From a bacterium (GTDB taxonomy: Bacteria; Pseudomonadota; Alphaproteobacteria; Caulobacterales; Hyphomonadaceae): a DNA stretch of 64,000 bases. Under the pieces are notes generated by a model, which was given only the letters and a program-made list of their open reading frames with translations, searched no databases and was not told where the DNA came from. Of this stretch, positions 14,410-30,640 are shown piece by piece. The stretch lies in the NCBI GenBank assembly GCA_016125045.1, contig WGML01000006.1, positions 1 through 64,000 on the forward strand, written 5' to 3'. The position numbers were made by a program, and so were the translations under genes. Every line of letters starts with the position of its first letter. Within the stretch, counting starts at the first letter, position 1.

Positions 14410-15219
14410 ATGGCCAAACGTTCCGCCGTCCGCCGTCGCGCAGACATCGAGGCGCAGTCCTCCATCGAGAGCGGCCGGGGGCCGCGGCTGAACGTGATCC
14501 AGGGCGGCTGGGATCCATCGGACGACAGTAACTCTGCGGTCAAGAAGCGTCGCCGAATGAGTGAGCAGGCTCCCCCCGAACCGCAGCGTGAGCAGGCCTA
14601 TGTCAAAAACGTCCAGCCCAGGTCCGAGGGCCAGGCGCGACTCATGGAGGCGATCGATCGGGCCCCGCTTGTGGTCGCCCTTGGGCCCGCTGGAACCGGC
14701 AAGACCTACCTCGCCATCGCAAAGGCGGTCGAGGCGCTCCGATCAGGTCGCGTGGGCAGGATTGTCCTCTGCCGACCGGCGGTCGATGCGGGTGAAAACA
14801 TCGGTTTCCTGCCGGGCGACATGGAAGAGAAGCTCGCCCCATACCTGCGCCCGCTCTATGACGCGTTGTCGGATCGGCTTGCTCCGAGGCAGCTGAAGGC
14901 GATGATCGCCGAAGGCCAGATCGAGATCGCACCCGTCGGCTTCATGCGCGGCCGCACACTCAATAACGCCTATGTGGTGATCGACGAAGCGCAAAACTGT
15001 ACCTACACCCAGCTGAAAATGCTGCTCACGCGCCTCGGCTGGAATTCTTCGATGGTGGTGACCGGCGACCCGGCGCAATCGGACCTGCTACCGGAAATAT
15101 CCGGTCTCGCCTCAGTCGCCGATCGTCTTTCGAAGATGGACAATGTCGCCGTCATTCGCCTCGCAGCAGAGGACGTGGTGCGCCATCCGCTTGTCGCCAA
15201 GATGCTGGACGTCCTCTGA
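14410..15219 (+). CDS. PhoH-like ATPase
   Basis: A 269-residue PhoH-family P-loop ATPase. Walker A is GPAGTGKTYL near residue 92, Walker B is YVVIDEAQN, and sensor motif VTGDPAQSDL follows; the RP(A)VDAGENIGFLPGD segment is diagnostic of PhoH. The N-terminal 65 residues are basic and low in complexity. Many alphaproteobacteria carry a second, ybeY-linked PhoH (PhoL); this copy has no ybeY, miaB or lnt beside it, so it is the solitary type. Its role (RNA helicase or RNA metabolism) is inferred from family. AAGGAGAG precedes the start and a terminator-like hairpin lies in its leader. Confidence 0.9.
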   Translation: MAKRSAVRRRADIEAQSSIESGRGPRLNVIQGGWDPSDDSNSAVKKRRRMSEQAPPEPQREQAYVKNVQPRSEGQARLMEAIDRAPLVVALGPAGTGKTYLAIAKAVEALRSGRVGRIVLCRPAVDAGENIGFLPGDMEEKLAPYLRPLYDALSDRLAPRQLKAMIAEGQIEIAPVGFMRGRTLNNAYVVIDEAQNCTYTQLKMLLTRLGWNSSMVVTGDPAQSDLLPEISGLASVADRLSKMDNVAVIRLAAEDVVRHPLVAKMLDVL

Positions 15220-15279: not shown

Positions 15280-16848
15280 TTAGAACCCGCCCCCGGTCTT
15301 AAACCCGCCGCCGCGTCGGCCCCCGCCACGTGACCCGCCCCCCGAGCGCCCGCTGGAGCGACTGCCTGAACGGCCGCTGGAACCTCCCCCAGATCCCCCG
15401 CCGGAGCCTCCCCATGGCCCGCCGCCACTCCAGCCGCTGCGGCGCGTCCCATGGCGCACCGCCTCCCGGACGACTTCCTCCAGAATGACCTCCGCCACCG
15501 CTGGGATACTGATCGAGCCACGCCGGGCAGAGCCTCCGAAATACCGGTCGTCCTCCTGGGGCGCACGCCGGATGGTCGCCGAGATCGCCCTCCAGAGGCG
15601 CGGCCCATCGGGCTCCTGCACTCCATAGACCGACAACGCTGCTTCGAAGGCCGGCCCCGAGAAGGCGACATAGGGGCTGTCGAGCCCAGCCTTCTTGAAC
15701 CGCCTTCTCACATCCTCAAGCTCTCCCACGATGTCCTTGCGCATTTCAGGCAGGCTGTGCAGCGAGGCGGCTCCGACCTCCATCGACAGTTGCTCGGTGC
15801 GAAGTTTGATAAGGGTTTCGACGAGTCGGTCGTCTTCGAGCCCCACCGTCTGCGACGCCAGCACCCGGAGGTCCGGGAACGGCGCTTGCTCAAGTCCATC
15901 CTCAATCAGTTCTACAGCCCGGCGAGCCGGACCCGCAGCGCCGGCGTCGGCGCTGGTGAGTCGTTCACGAACCTCAACGAGCTTGCTCTCGGCGTTCGCC
16001 ATTTCCTCATCGATCGAAGCCAGGCCTTCGCGAAGCTCTTCCACTTTATGGCGAAGCGCATCGGCGCCGTCGGCGGAGAGAGCCGCTGCCTCGGCGGCCT
16101 CGAGCGAGGCCTGCGCGTTGGCGCGGTCCTTTTCGAGCCGCTCGACATGTTCAGCGAGCCGTTCCGGGAGTTCCGTCAGCCGGCCATAATTGAGCCATGA
16201 AGCGTCGTAGCCACATACCTTGGCGACCCAGCCATCGAGCATCCTGGTGAGCCCCGAGGCGCGGTAGTCCGGAGTGCGGAAACGACGTTTCCACAGATAG
16301 CTGAACAGCGGGTCGGCCTCATAGGGCCTGCCTTTGATCTTGCGATCTGCGCGCGCGATGTCGAGTTTCTGTCGAGCGCGTTCGCAAACCGCACCAAGAT
16401 CAACAAAAGCAACCTTCAGCGCGTTGTAGGCATCGTCGGACTGCAGGCGCGCCTCGGTGGCTGCGACCTGCTTTTCATAGGCGTGGATCGCTGCGTCCAG
16501 CGCCTGCTCCTGCTCCCGTCGCCGCCCTTCGATCGCCTCCGCGGCGACGTGCAGTGTTTCGGCTTCAGCGGTAAGCTGCCTCAAAAAACCCTCATGCTCA
16601 TCGAGAAGCTTGCGAGCTGACACCTCGACGCCGCTCAGGAGTTCCGGCGCACCCGTCTTGAGCGCATCGACACGCAGCTCGGCCAGCTTTCGGTAGGTTT
16701 CCGCCATCATCCGCGCGACCTCTGCCCGGCGTGCGGTCTGTCTTTCCACGGCGGCCGTCGCCCGGCCATAACCCTCCCGCGCTCGGGCAACCGCGTCGTC
16801 GAGAAAGTGGAGCGCCTCGCGCCCGGAAATCATATCCGCGCTCACCAT
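15280..16848 (-). CDS. Coiled-coil protein with Gly/Ser/Arg-rich tail (third gene of a cassette)
   Basis: A 522-residue protein of unknown function. Residues about 15-150 and 225-310 are strongly heptad-like and rich in Ala, Glu, Leu and Arg. Between them is a conserved-looking globular stretch (DPLFSYLWKRRFRTPDY, GWVAKVCGYDASWLNY). The last 50 residues are almost only Gly, Ser and Arg (GGSGGGSGGGSS, GGGRRGGGFK), a disordered basic tail that could bind nucleic acid, a membrane or a polyanion. It overlaps the preceding gene by seven bases and ends the three-gene unit. No signal peptide or membrane helix is seen. GTG 16845 or ATG 16833 are other possible starts. Confidence 0.78.
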   Translation of the reverse strand: MVSADMISGREALHFLDDAVARAREGYGRATAAVERQTARRAEVARMMAETYRKLAELRVDALKTGAPELLSGVEVSARKLLDEHEGFLRQLTAEAETLHVAAEAIEGRRREQEQALDAAIHAYEKQVAATEARLQSDDAYNALKVAFVDLGAVCERARQKLDIARADRKIKGRPYEADPLFSYLWKRRFRTPDYRASGLTRMLDGWVAKVCGYDASWLNYGRLTELPERLAEHVERLEKDRANAQASLEAAEAAALSADGADALRHKVEELREGLASIDEEMANAESKLVEVRERLTSADAGAAGPARRAVELIEDGLEQAPFPDLRVLASQTVGLEDDRLVETLIKLRTEQLSMEVGAASLHSLPEMRKDIVGELEDVRRRFKKAGLDSPYVAFSGPAFEAALSVYGVQEPDGPRLWRAISATIRRAPQEDDRYFGGSARRGSISIPAVAEVILEEVVREAVRHGTRRSGWSGGGPWGGSGGGSGGGSSGRSGSRSSGRSGGGSRGGGRRGGGFKTGGGF

Positions 16849-17795
16849 GCGAGGATCGCCCCGCCCGGAGAGGCGCCGGCATAATCAGGCTCGAGAACGC
16901 CCCGCGCCTTGTAGCCCAGAACGTCATTCTGCACGATCTGGTCGTCGCCCTTGTCGGCGGCCACACGGTTGTAGGCTTCTTCGGTGACGCGCTGCCCCCA
17001 TTTGGAGACCCGGCGCGTCTCCTGCGTCTCTTCGCTGGTGATCGGCACATCCACCAGCACGCCGCCCGGCGCGACCGCCTCAACGATCAGATAGTAGTTG
17101 CGGGCGTTCGGCACGTCGTCTGGAATGCGGAACACGCCGGTCGATTCACCCGGCCTCGACACGATGCGAACGTCGTATTCCTCGGCAAGCAAGGAAATCA
17201 GACCCTGCATCTGTTGGAGCTGGAAACGGGCGGAGGTCCGGTCGCCCGCCTCGGTCGCCCGCACGCCCTCCGAATAAAGCGTGTTGAAGCGTTCGTCGAC
17301 GCTCTCTTCCTGTGCGAGGTCAACGCCCTGCGCGCGCGCCGCAGCGAGGTCCGAAGGCATCCGCGCCCATTCAGCGTTCCGCGGACCGGCCCATAGGAAT
17401 TGATACGCCGCAGCCGACGCCGCCAGCGCTCCCACTGTCCAGCCGACCGCTCCGAGCCACTGGTCGCGCGAGACATAGAGCCGGGCGAGGCGAACAGAGA
17501 GTGTGTTCGGCGGGGGTCGATAGACGAAGCGCTCTTCCTCAAGCGCCGCCACGCCGTCTCTCAGAATACGGTCCGGCACGTCGATGCCTTGAGCGCTGTA
17601 GATTTCCCTGAGGCGGCGGATCAGGGACTCTTCGCGCTCCTCGGCGTTGAGTTCACGATCAACCATCTGTTCGCGGTGTCGAAGCGTGTCGACGACATCC
17701 ATGGCGAGGAGCACGTCGTCGAGCTTGCGGGGAGTCGCTGGGGCCGGTGACGCGGCGGCGTCAACAGGTCCGCCGGCGGACGCAGCTTCGCTCAT
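16842..17795 (-). CDS. DUF6384-like membrane protein (second gene of a cassette)
   Basis: A 317-residue protein with one predicted transmembrane segment near residues 115-135 (LGAVGWTVGALAASAAAYQFLW). The cytoplasmic N-terminus begins with an Ala/Pro-rich stretch and LDDVLLAMDVVDTLRHRE. The C-terminal region carries YDVRIVSRPGESTGVFRIP, NARNYYLIVEA and VSKWGQRVTEEAYNRVAADK. The last two segments resemble what I remember as DUF6384, a family without known function; this was not searched. The start overlaps the upstream gene's stop as ATGA, so it should be translated with it. Confidence 0.76.
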   Translation of the reverse strand: MSEAASAGGPVDAAASPAPATPRKLDDVLLAMDVVDTLRHREQMVDRELNAEEREESLIRRLREIYSAQGIDVPDRILRDGVAALEEERFVYRPPPNTLSVRLARLYVSRDQWLGAVGWTVGALAASAAAYQFLWAGPRNAEWARMPSDLAAARAQGVDLAQEESVDERFNTLYSEGVRATEAGDRTSARFQLQQMQGLISLLAEEYDVRIVSRPGESTGVFRIPDDVPNARNYYLIVEAVAPGGVLVDVPITSEETQETRRVSKWGQRVTEEAYNRVAADKGDDQIVQNDVLGYKARGVLEPDYAGASPGGAILAW

Positions 17796-18967
17796 CCGAC
17801 CAACGCGGCCGCCGCGCCTTCAGCGACCAGCGAGGCAAGACGCCGCTTGCCGTCCTCCACCGCTTCGCGGATTTCCTTCGAGTTTTGCGTCGCGAGTTTG
17901 CGCATCTCCGCGATGATAAGCTGGTTGCGCTCCTGGTAGCTGACAACGCTGTCGACGAGTTTCTTGACCGCCGCGGCGGAGATCGTGGGGCCGTAGCCCG
18001 CCCGGGTCGCCGCTTCCTGAACCTTGCCGCCGATTTCACCGAGCGTTTCGAGGCTCTGATCAACGCCCTTCTTCATGGCCTCGAGCGTCTGTGTCGATTC
18101 ATGAAGACCATGGAGCCCGGTGAAGGACGCGGTCAGCGCCGTAAGAACGACCTCATTAGTGCCGAAGAACGACACCGACTGGGCGTAAACCCGCTCCTTC
18201 GCATTGGTGGTCTGGACGAGGCGCGCCATGATCACTTCAGACGTGTTGTAGCCGATCGTGATGTTGTCTGAGAGATCCTTGGAGATCTGGAACCGCTTCT
18301 CTTCTGACTGGAGCTCGCGCAAACGCTCATCGCGCTTCAGTTCGAGATCGGCGCGGACGGCGGCGTCGTCTCCAAGGTGTCCTGCGACGGCGGCGACCGC
18401 CTCATTCATCCTCGCCTTTGCGGCCTCGAGTTTCTCGGTGGCCGTCTTCATCACTTCGAGCGCGAGCACCTCCGACTGCTTCATCGCCCCGCGAAAATCC
18501 ATATAGGCCTCAAGGATCAGCCGCTCCTTGTCGATCTGAAGGGACGTTTCCGCCTGCACCTCGAGATAAAGTTCCTTGATCTTGCGGAAGCGGGCGGCGA
18601 TGTCGCCGCGGCTCATCTTCATCCAGACGTTGGAGAGGCGCTCCATCGTCGAGATCTTTCCATCCGCATACTGATCTACCAAACTCTTGGCGTCGTCACG
18701 GATCGAATTGAACGCCTCAGTGATGCCCTGATAGCGCTCGCCAACGGTGATGGCGGCTACGTGTTCGCGGACAACGTCGTTGAAATGGGACATCTGGTCG
18801 AGAGTGCGGGCGATCGCCGCCACACGGTCGGTGTCGAGGTCCGATATCTGGTTCAGCAGGGCGACGATCGGGGCCGGGTCGCCCTTCTTCGGCGGCGCTA
18901 TCCCGAGTTCACGCAAAGACCCCATGGCCTTGTCGAGATATTGAAGGGCTGTGGGGCTGCGGGCCAT
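17792..18967 (-). CDS. Helical coiled-coil protein, possibly TelA-like (first gene of a cassette)
   Basis: A 391-residue, nearly all-helical soluble protein. Long amphipathic stretches include QAETSLQIDKERLILEAYMD and the C-terminal region from KRFQISKDLSDNITIGYNTS to QERNQLIIAEMRKLA. The overall layout, with a C-terminal segment of about 100 residues containing SVSFFGTNEVVLTALTASF and TLEAMKKGVDQSLETLGEI, reminds me of TelA/KlaA toxic-anion-resistance proteins, but I cannot confirm this without a profile search. GAGGAG six bases before ATG 18967 gives it a strong start, and it leads the operon of three overlapping genes. Confidence 0.76.
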   Translation of the reverse strand: MARSPTALQYLDKAMGSLRELGIAPPKKGDPAPIVALLNQISDLDTDRVAAIARTLDQMSHFNDVVREHVAAITVGERYQGITEAFNSIRDDAKSLVDQYADGKISTMERLSNVWMKMSRGDIAARFRKIKELYLEVQAETSLQIDKERLILEAYMDFRGAMKQSEVLALEVMKTATEKLEAAKARMNEAVAAVAGHLGDDAAVRADLELKRDERLRELQSEEKRFQISKDLSDNITIGYNTSEVIMARLVQTTNAKERVYAQSVSFFGTNEVVLTALTASFTGLHGLHESTQTLEAMKKGVDQSLETLGEIGGKVQEAATRAGYGPTISAAAVKKLVDSVVSYQERNQLIIAEMRKLATQNSKEIREAVEDGKRRLASLVAEGAAAALVG

Positions 18968-19266: not shown

Positions 19267-19287
19267 TGCGACTTAGTTGCATTCGCA
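19267..19287. promoter_or_regulatory. TGCGA/TCGCA dyad upstream of the PepSY gene
   Basis: TGCGA-N11-TCGCA, with a TTGCA in the middle, lies 44 bases before the chosen start of the PepSY-TM gene. TGCGA/TCGCA arms occur in alphaproteobacterial Fur sites, and PepSY-TM proteins are often iron-regulated, but the spacing is not the usual one. The rest of the 18968-19330 gap shows no gene. Confidence 0.25.
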
Positions 19288-19330
19288 TATATCTCAGGCG
19301 TATGCCTGCGTAAACAGGATCGGGCATCAC

Positions 19331-20518
19331 TTGAAGCGCGTCCCTTACCGCTCCGCACTCGTTTTTTGGCATCGCTGGTTTGGTGTTCTGGCGGCGCTCT
19401 TCTTGTTCGTGATAGGTTTCACCGGCTCGATCATCGTGTTCTACGAAGAGCTCGACCACGTCCTGAACCGCGACCTCCTTGCGGTGCAGCCTGGCGAAAC
19501 GCATCGCCCCCTCGACGAAATCGCCGCGGCGGGGGTCCGCACGGAACCCGATCACTATGTGAGCTACTTAGACGTCGCGAACGATGACACCGGAAGCGTT
19601 CGGTTGTTCATGCCGCGACGGGTGGACCGGCCACCCGCGCCGGACGGAGACCCGGTCCCTCGACCAAGCGTGTTCGTCGACCCCTATTCCGCAACCGTCC
19701 TCGGATCTCGCGACCTTTCCCAGATCGATCTCTCACGTCGCGGGATCATGAGCTTTATATACAGACTGCACTATGAACTTGCCCTCGGACCCACGATGTA
19801 TTGGGTCTTTGGTCTCATCGCGCTGCTGTGGCTGGTCGACCACGCGATTTCGGCAGGACTGTCCTTTCCGCGTGGCAAGAGCTGGGTTTCGAGCTTTCGC
19901 ATCCGTGAAGGCGCCTCCGGACACAAACTGAATTTCGATCTGCATCGGGCCGCTGGGCTGTGGATTTTCCCGATCACGCTAACGCTCGCGTTCACCGGCC
20001 TCTACTTCAACTGGAACAATGAAGTGCGCGGTGCGATCAACGCGTTGTCGCCCATCACGAAGCGATATCCAGAAACGGCGGAACTATTGCCCACTCCCCT
20101 CTATGATCCTCCAAAGGGCTTTTCTGTCGTCGCGTCGATCGCTCAAGAACACGCCAAGGCCCAGGTGGACGCAATTATCTACAATGCGCAAAAGGGCCTG
20201 TATGTCGTCTATGTCTTTGATCCAGCAGATATCTACACCGCAGGGCAACGCGCGATCGTCATCGACGCAACGTCTGCCGCCGTGAAGGAGGACTACCATA
20301 CAACGAAAGGCTCCATCGGTGACGCCGTCGTCGCGTGGCAATTTCCGCTGCACTCAGGAAAAGCGTTCGGTTGGCCGGGGCGGATCGCGATATTCGTGGC
20401 CGGCATCGGTTTGTGCGGGTTGATCATCACAGGCCTGTTGATTTGGCGACGCAAGTCCTCAAGCCGCGTCCTTGCGCGGCGACGGACCCTTACGGGTTCA
20501 CCGACCCCTGCTGAGTAG
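19331..20518 (+). CDS. PepSY-associated transmembrane protein
   Basis: A membrane protein of about 395 residues in the PepSY_TM family. The first helix has the signature FWHRWFGVLAALFLFVIGFTGSIIVF; three more membrane segments follow (around MYWVFGLIALLWLVDHAIS, the FDLHRAAGLWIFPITLTLAFTG stretch, and a C-terminal IAIFVAGIGLCGLIITG). The paired His residues in FWHRW, LHYEL, DLHRA and LHSGK are typical of this diheme-like family, which often works with siderophore uptake as a ferric-reductase-like protein. I chose the TTG at 19331 after AGGATCGGG; a TTG at 19277 is a longer alternative. No TonB receptor gene is next to it. Confidence 0.83.
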   Translation: MKRVPYRSALVFWHRWFGVLAALFLFVIGFTGSIIVFYEELDHVLNRDLLAVQPGETHRPLDEIAAAGVRTEPDHYVSYLDVANDDTGSVRLFMPRRVDRPPAPDGDPVPRPSVFVDPYSATVLGSRDLSQIDLSRRGIMSFIYRLHYELALGPTMYWVFGLIALLWLVDHAISAGLSFPRGKSWVSSFRIREGASGHKLNFDLHRAAGLWIFPITLTLAFTGLYFNWNNEVRGAINALSPITKRYPETAELLPTPLYDPPKGFSVVASIAQEHAKAQVDAIIYNAQKGLYVVYVFDPADIYTAGQRAIVIDATSAAVKEDYHTTKGSIGDAVVAWQFPLHSGKAFGWPGRIAIFVAGIGLCGLIITGLLIWRRKSSSRVLARRRTLTGSPTPAE

Positions 20519-29710: not shown

Positions 29711-30640
29711 ATGCCTGATGTGTTTCTGTCCTATTCCAGCAACGATCGGGCCGCCGCCGATCTGGTGCAGTCGCATCTCTCTGCGCATGGCGTGGACGTG
29801 TTCTGGGATCAGGAAGTGCCCCCCGGCGTCGATTGGGACACCTGGATCCGGTCGAAACTGACCGAGGCGAAAGTCGCTGTCGTGCTCTGGTCGAGAACGA
29901 GCGTCGCGAGTTCCAACGTCCGCCACGAGGCGATGATCGGAAAGAACGCGAACAAGCTCGTACCCGTGATGATCGACGCGCTGACGCCGGAGGATTTCCC
30001 GATGGGACTCTTTCTCATTCAGGCGATCAAGCTCGATGACTGGCGCAGCAGGTCCCCGGCCGGACTCGGTCGACTGCTGGCCGAGGTGAACGCGCGCCTC
30101 AACCGCCCCGCGGCCCCTCCGCCGCCCCAAAGAGCTGCCCCCTCTGACGCAAAGAAAAAGGCCGGTAGCCCAGTCCCGGCGGTGATCGGTGCTCTCGCGT
30201 TGGTGACCGCCGCTGCGGTCGGCGGGTGGTACGTTCTGCGCGGCGACGCATCGGGCCCGGCGCTTGAGGCCGAATTTCCGCCGTCTGCAGAGATCGCGTC
30301 AGCCCCCGCTGAAGGCTTGGCGCCGGGGACGCTATTGTCGGACGGAATTATTGGTCGGTGGACCTGGTCAGACCAACCATGCGAGGCAGGGCCCCAAGTG
30401 ACAAGCGAGGCGGGTCGCCTCGTCTTCACGACTCCGGCCTCCCGCTATGTACATGTCATCGAGGAAGAAGACACCGAGTCGGTGCGCACACGTGTGATCG
30501 AGCCTGAATTCGTGCTCGGCGAACAATACCGCCTGGCGCTTGAGTATGTTGCATCCGAAGCAGATAAGCCGTTCAATCTCATCGTCGAGAACATGACGGC
30601 TGGGACCCGAGATTTATGGAAGCCTTGCGACATCGAGTGA
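29711..30640 (+). CDS. TIR-domain membrane protein with periplasmic domain
   Basis: A 309-residue protein. Residues 1-130 are a TIR domain: VFLSYSSNDRAAADLVQSHL (box 1), VFWDQEVPPGVDW, and AVVLWSRTSVASSNVRHEA with Glu73 at the position used by NAD-cleaving TIRs. A Pro/Ala/Lys linker leads to one membrane helix (about 155-177) and a C-terminal domain of about 130 residues outside the cytoplasm with two cysteines. So the TIR is cytoplasmic and the tail is a possible envelope sensor. Bacterial TIRs are often NADases in defence, but some are only adaptors; activity is inferred. AGGAGA precedes the ATG. Its 3' end overlaps the next gene by about 25 bases. Confidence 0.85.
   Translation: MPDVFLSYSSNDRAAADLVQSHLSAHGVDVFWDQEVPPGVDWDTWIRSKLTEAKVAVVLWSRTSVASSNVRHEAMIGKNANKLVPVMIDALTPEDFPMGLFLIQAIKLDDWRSRSPAGLGRLLAEVNARLNRPAAPPPPQRAAPSDAKKKAGSPVPAVIGALALVTAAAVGGWYVLRGDASGPALEAEFPPSAEIASAPAEGLAPGTLLSDGIIGRWTWSDQPCEAGPQVTSEAGRLVFTTPASRYVHVIEEEDTESVRTRVIEPEFVLGEQYRLALEYVASEADKPFNLIVENMTAGTRDLWKPCDIE

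Follow-up and report, generated by a model that had tools for sequence, protein, structure and literature searches.

Three overlapping genes of a Hyphomonadaceae genome form a conserved unit, also found on megaplasmids and phage, that may encode an inner-membrane helical complex

Here we present an analysis of three overlapping genes, designated A, B and C, in a 64,000-nucleotide stretch of DNA (the window; contig WGML01000006.1, assembly GCA_016125045.1) from a member of the Hyphomonadaceae. The three minus-strand frames, with their 4- and 7-base overlaps, lie exactly where a preliminary description, made from the letters alone, had placed them (Table 1). In dozens of genomes all three are kept side by side on one strand, so the A-B-C arrangement is more than chance. 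Comparison across these genomes also added features that the description did not hold: a fixed terminal peptide on C, a C-terminal tryptophan on B, and copies of the triad on plasmids and phage.

Table 1. Coordinates of the triad and of its protein features in the window
Feature	Position	Strand	Description
Gene A	17792-18967	-	First gene of the unit; 391 aa, helical, no known family
Gene B	16842-17795	-	317 aa, DUF6384 (PF19911), one hydrophobic segment, N-terminus predicted inside
Gene C	15280-16848	-	522 aa, rich in coiled coil, Gly/Ser/Arg tail
A stop / B start overlap	17792-17795	-	4 nt, ATGA
B end / C start overlap	16842-16848	-	7 nt
A residues 280-332	17972-18130	-	Among the most conserved; pLDDT of 10-residue blocks ~27-38; candidate partner surface
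B residues ~113-135	17391-17459	-	Single hydrophobic (predicted transmembrane) segment; from scan and model
B residues 207-317	16845-17177	-	Alpha/beta C-terminal domain, predicted periplasmic; ends in conserved I-[TL]-x-W
C residues 176-234	16147-16323	-	Most conserved inner segment, PYExDPLFxYLW..LDGWVA..NY..L..P.R..EH; from alignment
C residues ~470-522	15283-15441	-	Gly/Ser/Arg-rich tail
C residues 516-522	15283-15303	-	FKTGGGF-COOH, conserved terminal peptide

The three genes are hardly ever separated, as the preliminary description had expected. When each was searched for separately in 61 genomes (that of the window and 60 relatives), A was found in 18, B in 19 and C in 19; the whole triad was present in 18 genomes, none of it in 42, and a remnant in one. 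Eighty named loci were then fetched through B from the Alphaproteobacteria, Gammaproteobacteria, Thermodesulfobacteriota, Myxococcota, Campylobacterota and Deinococcota. A was a same-strand neighbour of B in 79 of these and C in 77; in the three loci lacking C, the contig stops no more than 534 bases past B. No other family recurred in more than 10 of 81 loci, and the 111 direct neighbours that were scanned (134 less 23 that were long, redundant or doubtful) had no family in common beyond four acyl-CoA dehydrogenases. A, B and C have correlated distances (r 0.76-0.84, 69 loci), a result that, lacking a control, shared descent alone could explain. Outside the Hyphomonadaceae the triad is rare, since DUF6384 was found in 2 of 398 and A in 2 of 396 sampled genomes of the phylum, the window's own genome being one of the two in each case.

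B is a full-length member of DUF6384 (Pfam PF19911; E = 1.6e-109; 366 bits, with a curated cut-off of 25 bits; profile positions 4-308 of 308), which makes firm its earlier description as DUF6384-like. This family has no assigned function, and A and C match neither it nor any other Pfam family. DUF6384 is not mentioned in an open-access full-text collection of 5.39 million papers, a scope that excludes most subscription journals and bioRxiv. By a 19-residue Kyte-Doolittle scan (threshold 1.6), 68 of 81 B homologues have just one hydrophobic segment, in agreement with the proposal that B is a single-pass protein, although the window's own B is marginal, peaking at 1.51, just below the threshold. 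Lysine and arginine are commoner before than after the segment in 52 of the 68 single-segment homologues, the reverse being true in five. On the strength of the single segment and this positive-inside bias, B is predicted to reside in the inner membrane with its N-terminus inside. The predicted model (pLDDT 89.8) consists of a helical N-terminal part, the hydrophobic segment running into a helix bundle, and an alpha/beta C-terminal domain; this last domain is also recognisable in two phages described below. In 80 of 82 complete B proteins, tryptophan is the last or last-but-one residue. Fold searches with B returned nothing significant, the comparison being effectively of the three-helix part, residues 136-206, alone.

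The composition proposed for C, coiled-coil-like with a Gly-, Ser- and Arg-rich tail some 50 residues long, was confirmed: coiled-coil-like stretches surround a conserved inner segment and are followed by the tail. The tail itself varies and is of low complexity, in contrast to its fixed end, F-x-T-G-G-x-F-COOH. All 77 complete C proteins (two without a stop codon in the contig being omitted) terminate in F-x-[TS]-x-x-x-[F/I/V], and 62 of them in F-[KR]-T-G-x-x-F; by position, Phe stands at -7 in 77/77, Thr at -5 in 75/77, and Phe is the last residue in 75/77. In 19 of 79 C proteins the tail contains the motif two or three times. Searched for as a DNA pattern in six genomes, GGFxTGxxF-stop occurred once per genome, in every case as the last part of gene C (6/6), and the reversed control pattern did not occur in these genomes at all. 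The terminal peptide is thus not a general signal for export or sorting in the six genomes, and because no other protein of these genomes bears the motif, docking within a complex containing C would be the simplest reading. The C-terminal docking tails of SSB and FtsZ are likewise built of a flexible linker with a short conserved peptide at the chain end; the C motif differs from theirs and, in the six genomes, is confined to gene C.

Neither A nor C had a match above noise in Pfam, NCBIfam, PADLOC or PHROGs, and sequence searches of solved structures gave no convincing relative for A, B or C (best E 0.009, to a designed binder). A is the most conserved of the three proteins, with a mean column identity of 70% as compared with 47% for B and 36% for C. 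The expectation that it would be nearly all-helical agrees with its model, which is helical throughout at moderate confidence (pLDDT 70.5) and contains two long antiparallel helices, residues 108-195 and 202-284. No hydrophobic segment was detected in any of 79 A homologues by the scan used for B. A conserved stretch, residues 221-340, takes in residues 280-332, the part of the model with the lowest confidence; high conservation coinciding with the least model confidence is a hint that this part may be a candidate surface that folds on a partner.

The triad is also carried by plasmids. A tblastn search with A identified 11 plasmids among 72,556 records, at identities of 36-65%; these include Pseudomonas aeruginosa plasmids of 335-398 kb, Pseudomonas plasmids near 1 Mb, and conjugative and other megaplasmids (one match, H1, is the record of locus L087). 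In all six annotated megaplasmid records that were opened, A is followed by a "DUF6384 family protein" and then by a further gene. Three consecutive open reading frames (ORFs) in an unannotated Rhizobium record fit the triad, its C ending in FTTSDAG, and a Methylorubrum plasmid record carries an A match, with B and C not resolved there. Methylorubrum extorquens AM1 is among the carriers of A, which sits on its megaplasmid. In two Pseudomonas megaplasmids (L124 2579-5788, L140 2492-5025), the triad comes after genes for a StiP-domain protease and a peptidyl-tRNA hydrolase and before a dcd gene. On the P. aeruginosa PA83 plasmid, the type IV CRISPR gene csf2 (L123 16797-17107) is found some 5 kb past the triad.

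Among 50,697 phage records, A was found only in Yersinia phage phiR1-37 (present twice; 39.6% identity, E = 2e-70), a lytic jumbo phage in which genes g190-g192 stand in the order A-B-C. The product of g191, directly after A, matches the C-terminal part of DUF6384 (4.7e-26) and ends in ITNW; that of g192 has a Ser/Gly tail ending in GGFSSSDSF. Because the record marks other genes (g161-163, g168, g174, g176 and g178) and not these three as "phage structural protein", g190-192 probably do not encode virion parts. PMC10299810 uses phiR1-37 as a phage that has multisubunit RNA polymerases yet lacks chimallin, and the main texts of PMC4848604 and PMC13030884 do not name g190-192. A second phage, Dolichospermum phage Dfl-JY45 (L142), carries a B that matches the C-terminal part of DUF6384 (1.5e-47) and a C whose tail ends in GGGRVTGGGF. 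Just downstream of this pair (L142 8637-12338) is a 1233-aa DUF3584 (MukB-like) protein, which has no PADLOC match at E 0.001. Scans of IMG/VR with the queries A1, P0006 and P0001 gave no new phage, and a scan with A4 returned phiR1-37 and four contigs. Since the triads on these contigs lie near the contig end, in two or three of the four beyond an ORF named by eye as a prophage-type integrase, they are probably host flank.

A tree of A (85 rows) tracks the bacterial classes, requiring six changes over all groups together, with a minimum of five and a mean of 25 after shuffling. Sulfurovum is nested within the Gammaproteobacteria, and the plasmid and phage rows form long branches whose joining is unsafe; we read this branch of A as one that evolves fast. 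Two bins labelled Acidobacteria fall inside the Hyphomonadaceae and, judging from this placement, are probably mislabelled. A recent mobile cassette was rejected as an account of the distribution, because a tree ordered mostly by class fits better with many losses and some transfers. We therefore read the triad as an old unit that may often have been lost and sometimes transferred, as into Sulfurovum, plasmids and phage.

Because the three genes are hardly ever separated, the natural reading is that their products form one complex, which the preliminary description had placed at the inner membrane. The linkage and the hydrophobic segment of B with its positive-inside bias uphold that proposal, and the complex itself is likely rather than proven. 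We consider a physical complex at the inner membrane probable, and give about even weight to the fuller proposal that A, B and C make up one inner-membrane-anchored helical scaffold complex with the tail of C docked onto A or B. In this arrangement, B would anchor the complex in the membrane through its one segment, its helical N-terminal part lying in the cytosol and its alpha/beta domain in the periplasm. A, which evolves most slowly of the three, would be the cytosolic helical core, and C a coiled-coil extension whose flexible tail would carry the terminal peptide into a groove on A or B, on the principle of the SSB or FtsZ tails. Such a complex could scaffold or protect the inner membrane, serving a dispensable form of envelope maintenance. 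The complex, its topology, its docking and above all its function are what we infer, and envelope maintenance, the likeliest role of the triad, is a guess that we would expect to prove wrong rather more often than right.

Several observations weigh against this reading. One of the 61 genomes (G031; L099 8360-14650) has an intact C, a B reduced to its last third and no A, and its gap holds unrelated ORFs; because that flank matches the one in a triad-bearing genome of the same genus, this locus is a broken triad. In a Hellea metagenome-assembled genome (L082) another ORF stands in the place of A, and A was not found within 16.9 kb. Two loci have an extra ORF between B and C (L026 8936-9535, L022 8916-9552), and in phage Dfl-JY45 no A was found beside B and C. 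The neighbours of the triad are unrelated genes in which no tie to envelope stress was found. No known stress promoter stood out in the 300 bases upstream of A at 79 loci, where eleven promoter and operator patterns were compared with shuffled sequence: the largest excess, for an RpoH-like pattern, was weak (4 versus 0.35 in shuffles), and an EcfG-like pattern occurred twice versus 0.95. Finally, carriage by a lytic phage fits less easily with maintenance than with takeover or exclusion.

That last point belongs to the main rival explanation, in which the triad is a module for anti-phage defence or superinfection exclusion, working as a membrane-anchored sensor-effector that chromosomes, plasmids and a phage would carry against competitors. 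Its patchy occurrence even within one genus, its form as a self-contained cassette, its presence on megaplasmids, conjugative ones included, and in the genome of a lytic jumbo phage, and the lack of structural-protein notes on g190-192 all suit such a module. We nevertheless judge it unlikely, since the best PADLOC E-values were 0.02 for A and 0.05 for C, with none for B, no enzymatic or toxic domain was recognised, and A is very conserved with a tree largely by class, features in which most defence genes are unlike it. A location in defence islands was also rejected: PADLOC and Pfam searches of the 111 neighbours, for which there was no control set, gave no sign of enrichment, with mad3 matched by only two neighbours and PDC-S05 models by one each. 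Adjacency by itself is no proof of a complex, and the triad could consist of genes with separate functions that have no more than an operon in common, as the phage with B and C and no detected A might suggest. With all-or-none occurrence in 60 of 61 genomes, the same order across phyla, plasmids and phage, and no other conserved neighbour, that reading is very improbable.

The remaining rivals concern the identity of A, which the preliminary description had suggested might be TelA-like; the unit would then be a tellurite or envelope resistance operon with A as a distant TelA. A does resemble TelA (PF05816) in its approximate length and all-helical make-up, with a weak echo at the level of fold, phage models labelled TelA appearing at ranks 21, 27 and 38 of the fold search (E 0.06-0.11), and a StiP-type protease, a kind of gene that neighbours ter clusters, lies near the triad in the two Pseudomonas megaplasmids. 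The suggestion was not borne out, however, by sequence profiles: the TelA profile had no match in A at E <= 1, nor in the window's own genome at E <= 0.001 (3 of 14 control genomes did match), and the hhalign score of 26.7 for A against TelA was equalled by 5 of 60 block-shuffled TelA alignments. Another hhalign option aligned the two over nearly their full length at a probability of 1.6%. Of the 61 genomes, 11 contain TelA and 19 the triad or its remnant, and no genome contains both; replacement of one by the other was considered and rejected. Because 8 of 50 triad genomes of other lineages (50 of 64 listed loci) have TelA as a separate gene, the pattern among the relatives is one that follows family lines. 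The TelA identity is not supported by sequence, and we regard the resistance operon as improbable. An alpha-helical pore former of three components is more improbable still. Of the 14 top-scoring VIA-align rows for A, 13 belong to the ClyA/AhlB/XaxA family, whose elongated helix-bundle shape the A model shares (best Z 14.0 over 274 residues, a value not significant for a helical model and, by the tool's own note, typical where there is no clear match). Against this stand the empty Foldseek search of A at E <= 0.001, identities of only 6-12% over the VIA-align rows, the lack of a solved relative by sequence, the matches of A to BAR-domain and chemoreceptor helices as well, and the strong conservation of A and its lack of a hydrophobic segment. 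Membrane-surface helical scaffolds of the PspA/Vipp1 type would work in much the same way as the proposed complex, with a long helical hairpin and a membrane-associated partner. None of the three proteins matched a PspA family in Pfam at E <= 1, and PspA/Vipp1 is not among the matches listed in the fold comparison of A, which speaks neither for nor against an ESCRT-III-like fold. By the tests made, no known kind can be named as parent of the triad.

Some further features of the loci were recorded. In the window, a convergent PhoH-family gene (14410-15219) and a divergent PepSY_TM gene (19277-20518) flank the triad; no sigma-70-like promoter was found in this stretch, and no Rfam family was matched. 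Nine loci (L013, L014, L025, L028, L031, L033, L036, L038 and L042) share the element GTTTTTCGATA about 95 bases before the start of A, followed by CTTG and a CTA-containing stretch. Its carriers are mostly Hyphomonas and Hyphomonadaceae, two being labelled Acidobacteria; the element, absent from the window, is possibly a regulated promoter. The ORF inserted in L026 and L022 has a motif like YHxWxHI...YHDAVY...TNEED, HD-hydrolase-like by eye, and in L026 it has no Pfam match at E 0.001; L008 is seemingly the same contig as L026. Elsewhere in the window (29711-30640, plus strand) lies a TIR-domain protein (Pfam TIR_2, E = 4e-20) with weak PADLOC matches to TIR components, the best being SAVED-TIR at 1e-8.

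No description of the triad was found in the open-access literature, and one may exist elsewhere. Two of its three protein families have no match in the profile libraries that were searched and the other is known only as a DUF, yet the genes stay linked in several phyla, in a lytic jumbo phage and on megaplasmids, some of them from clinical P. aeruginosa. The triad is thus a defined, portable and self-contained system, for which the terminal peptide of C offers a short, testable handle and Methylorubrum extorquens AM1 and phage phiR1-37 are tractable carriers. A bolder reading, possible though doubtful, is that it may be an ancient three-protein inner-membrane machine, all-or-none in occurrence and held together by a private docking peptide, which megaplasmids and phage have taken up and which in phage might reshape, seal or protect the inner membrane of the infected host. 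If that were true, the phage triad would act in superinfection exclusion, in the timing of lysis, or in protecting the cell until burst.

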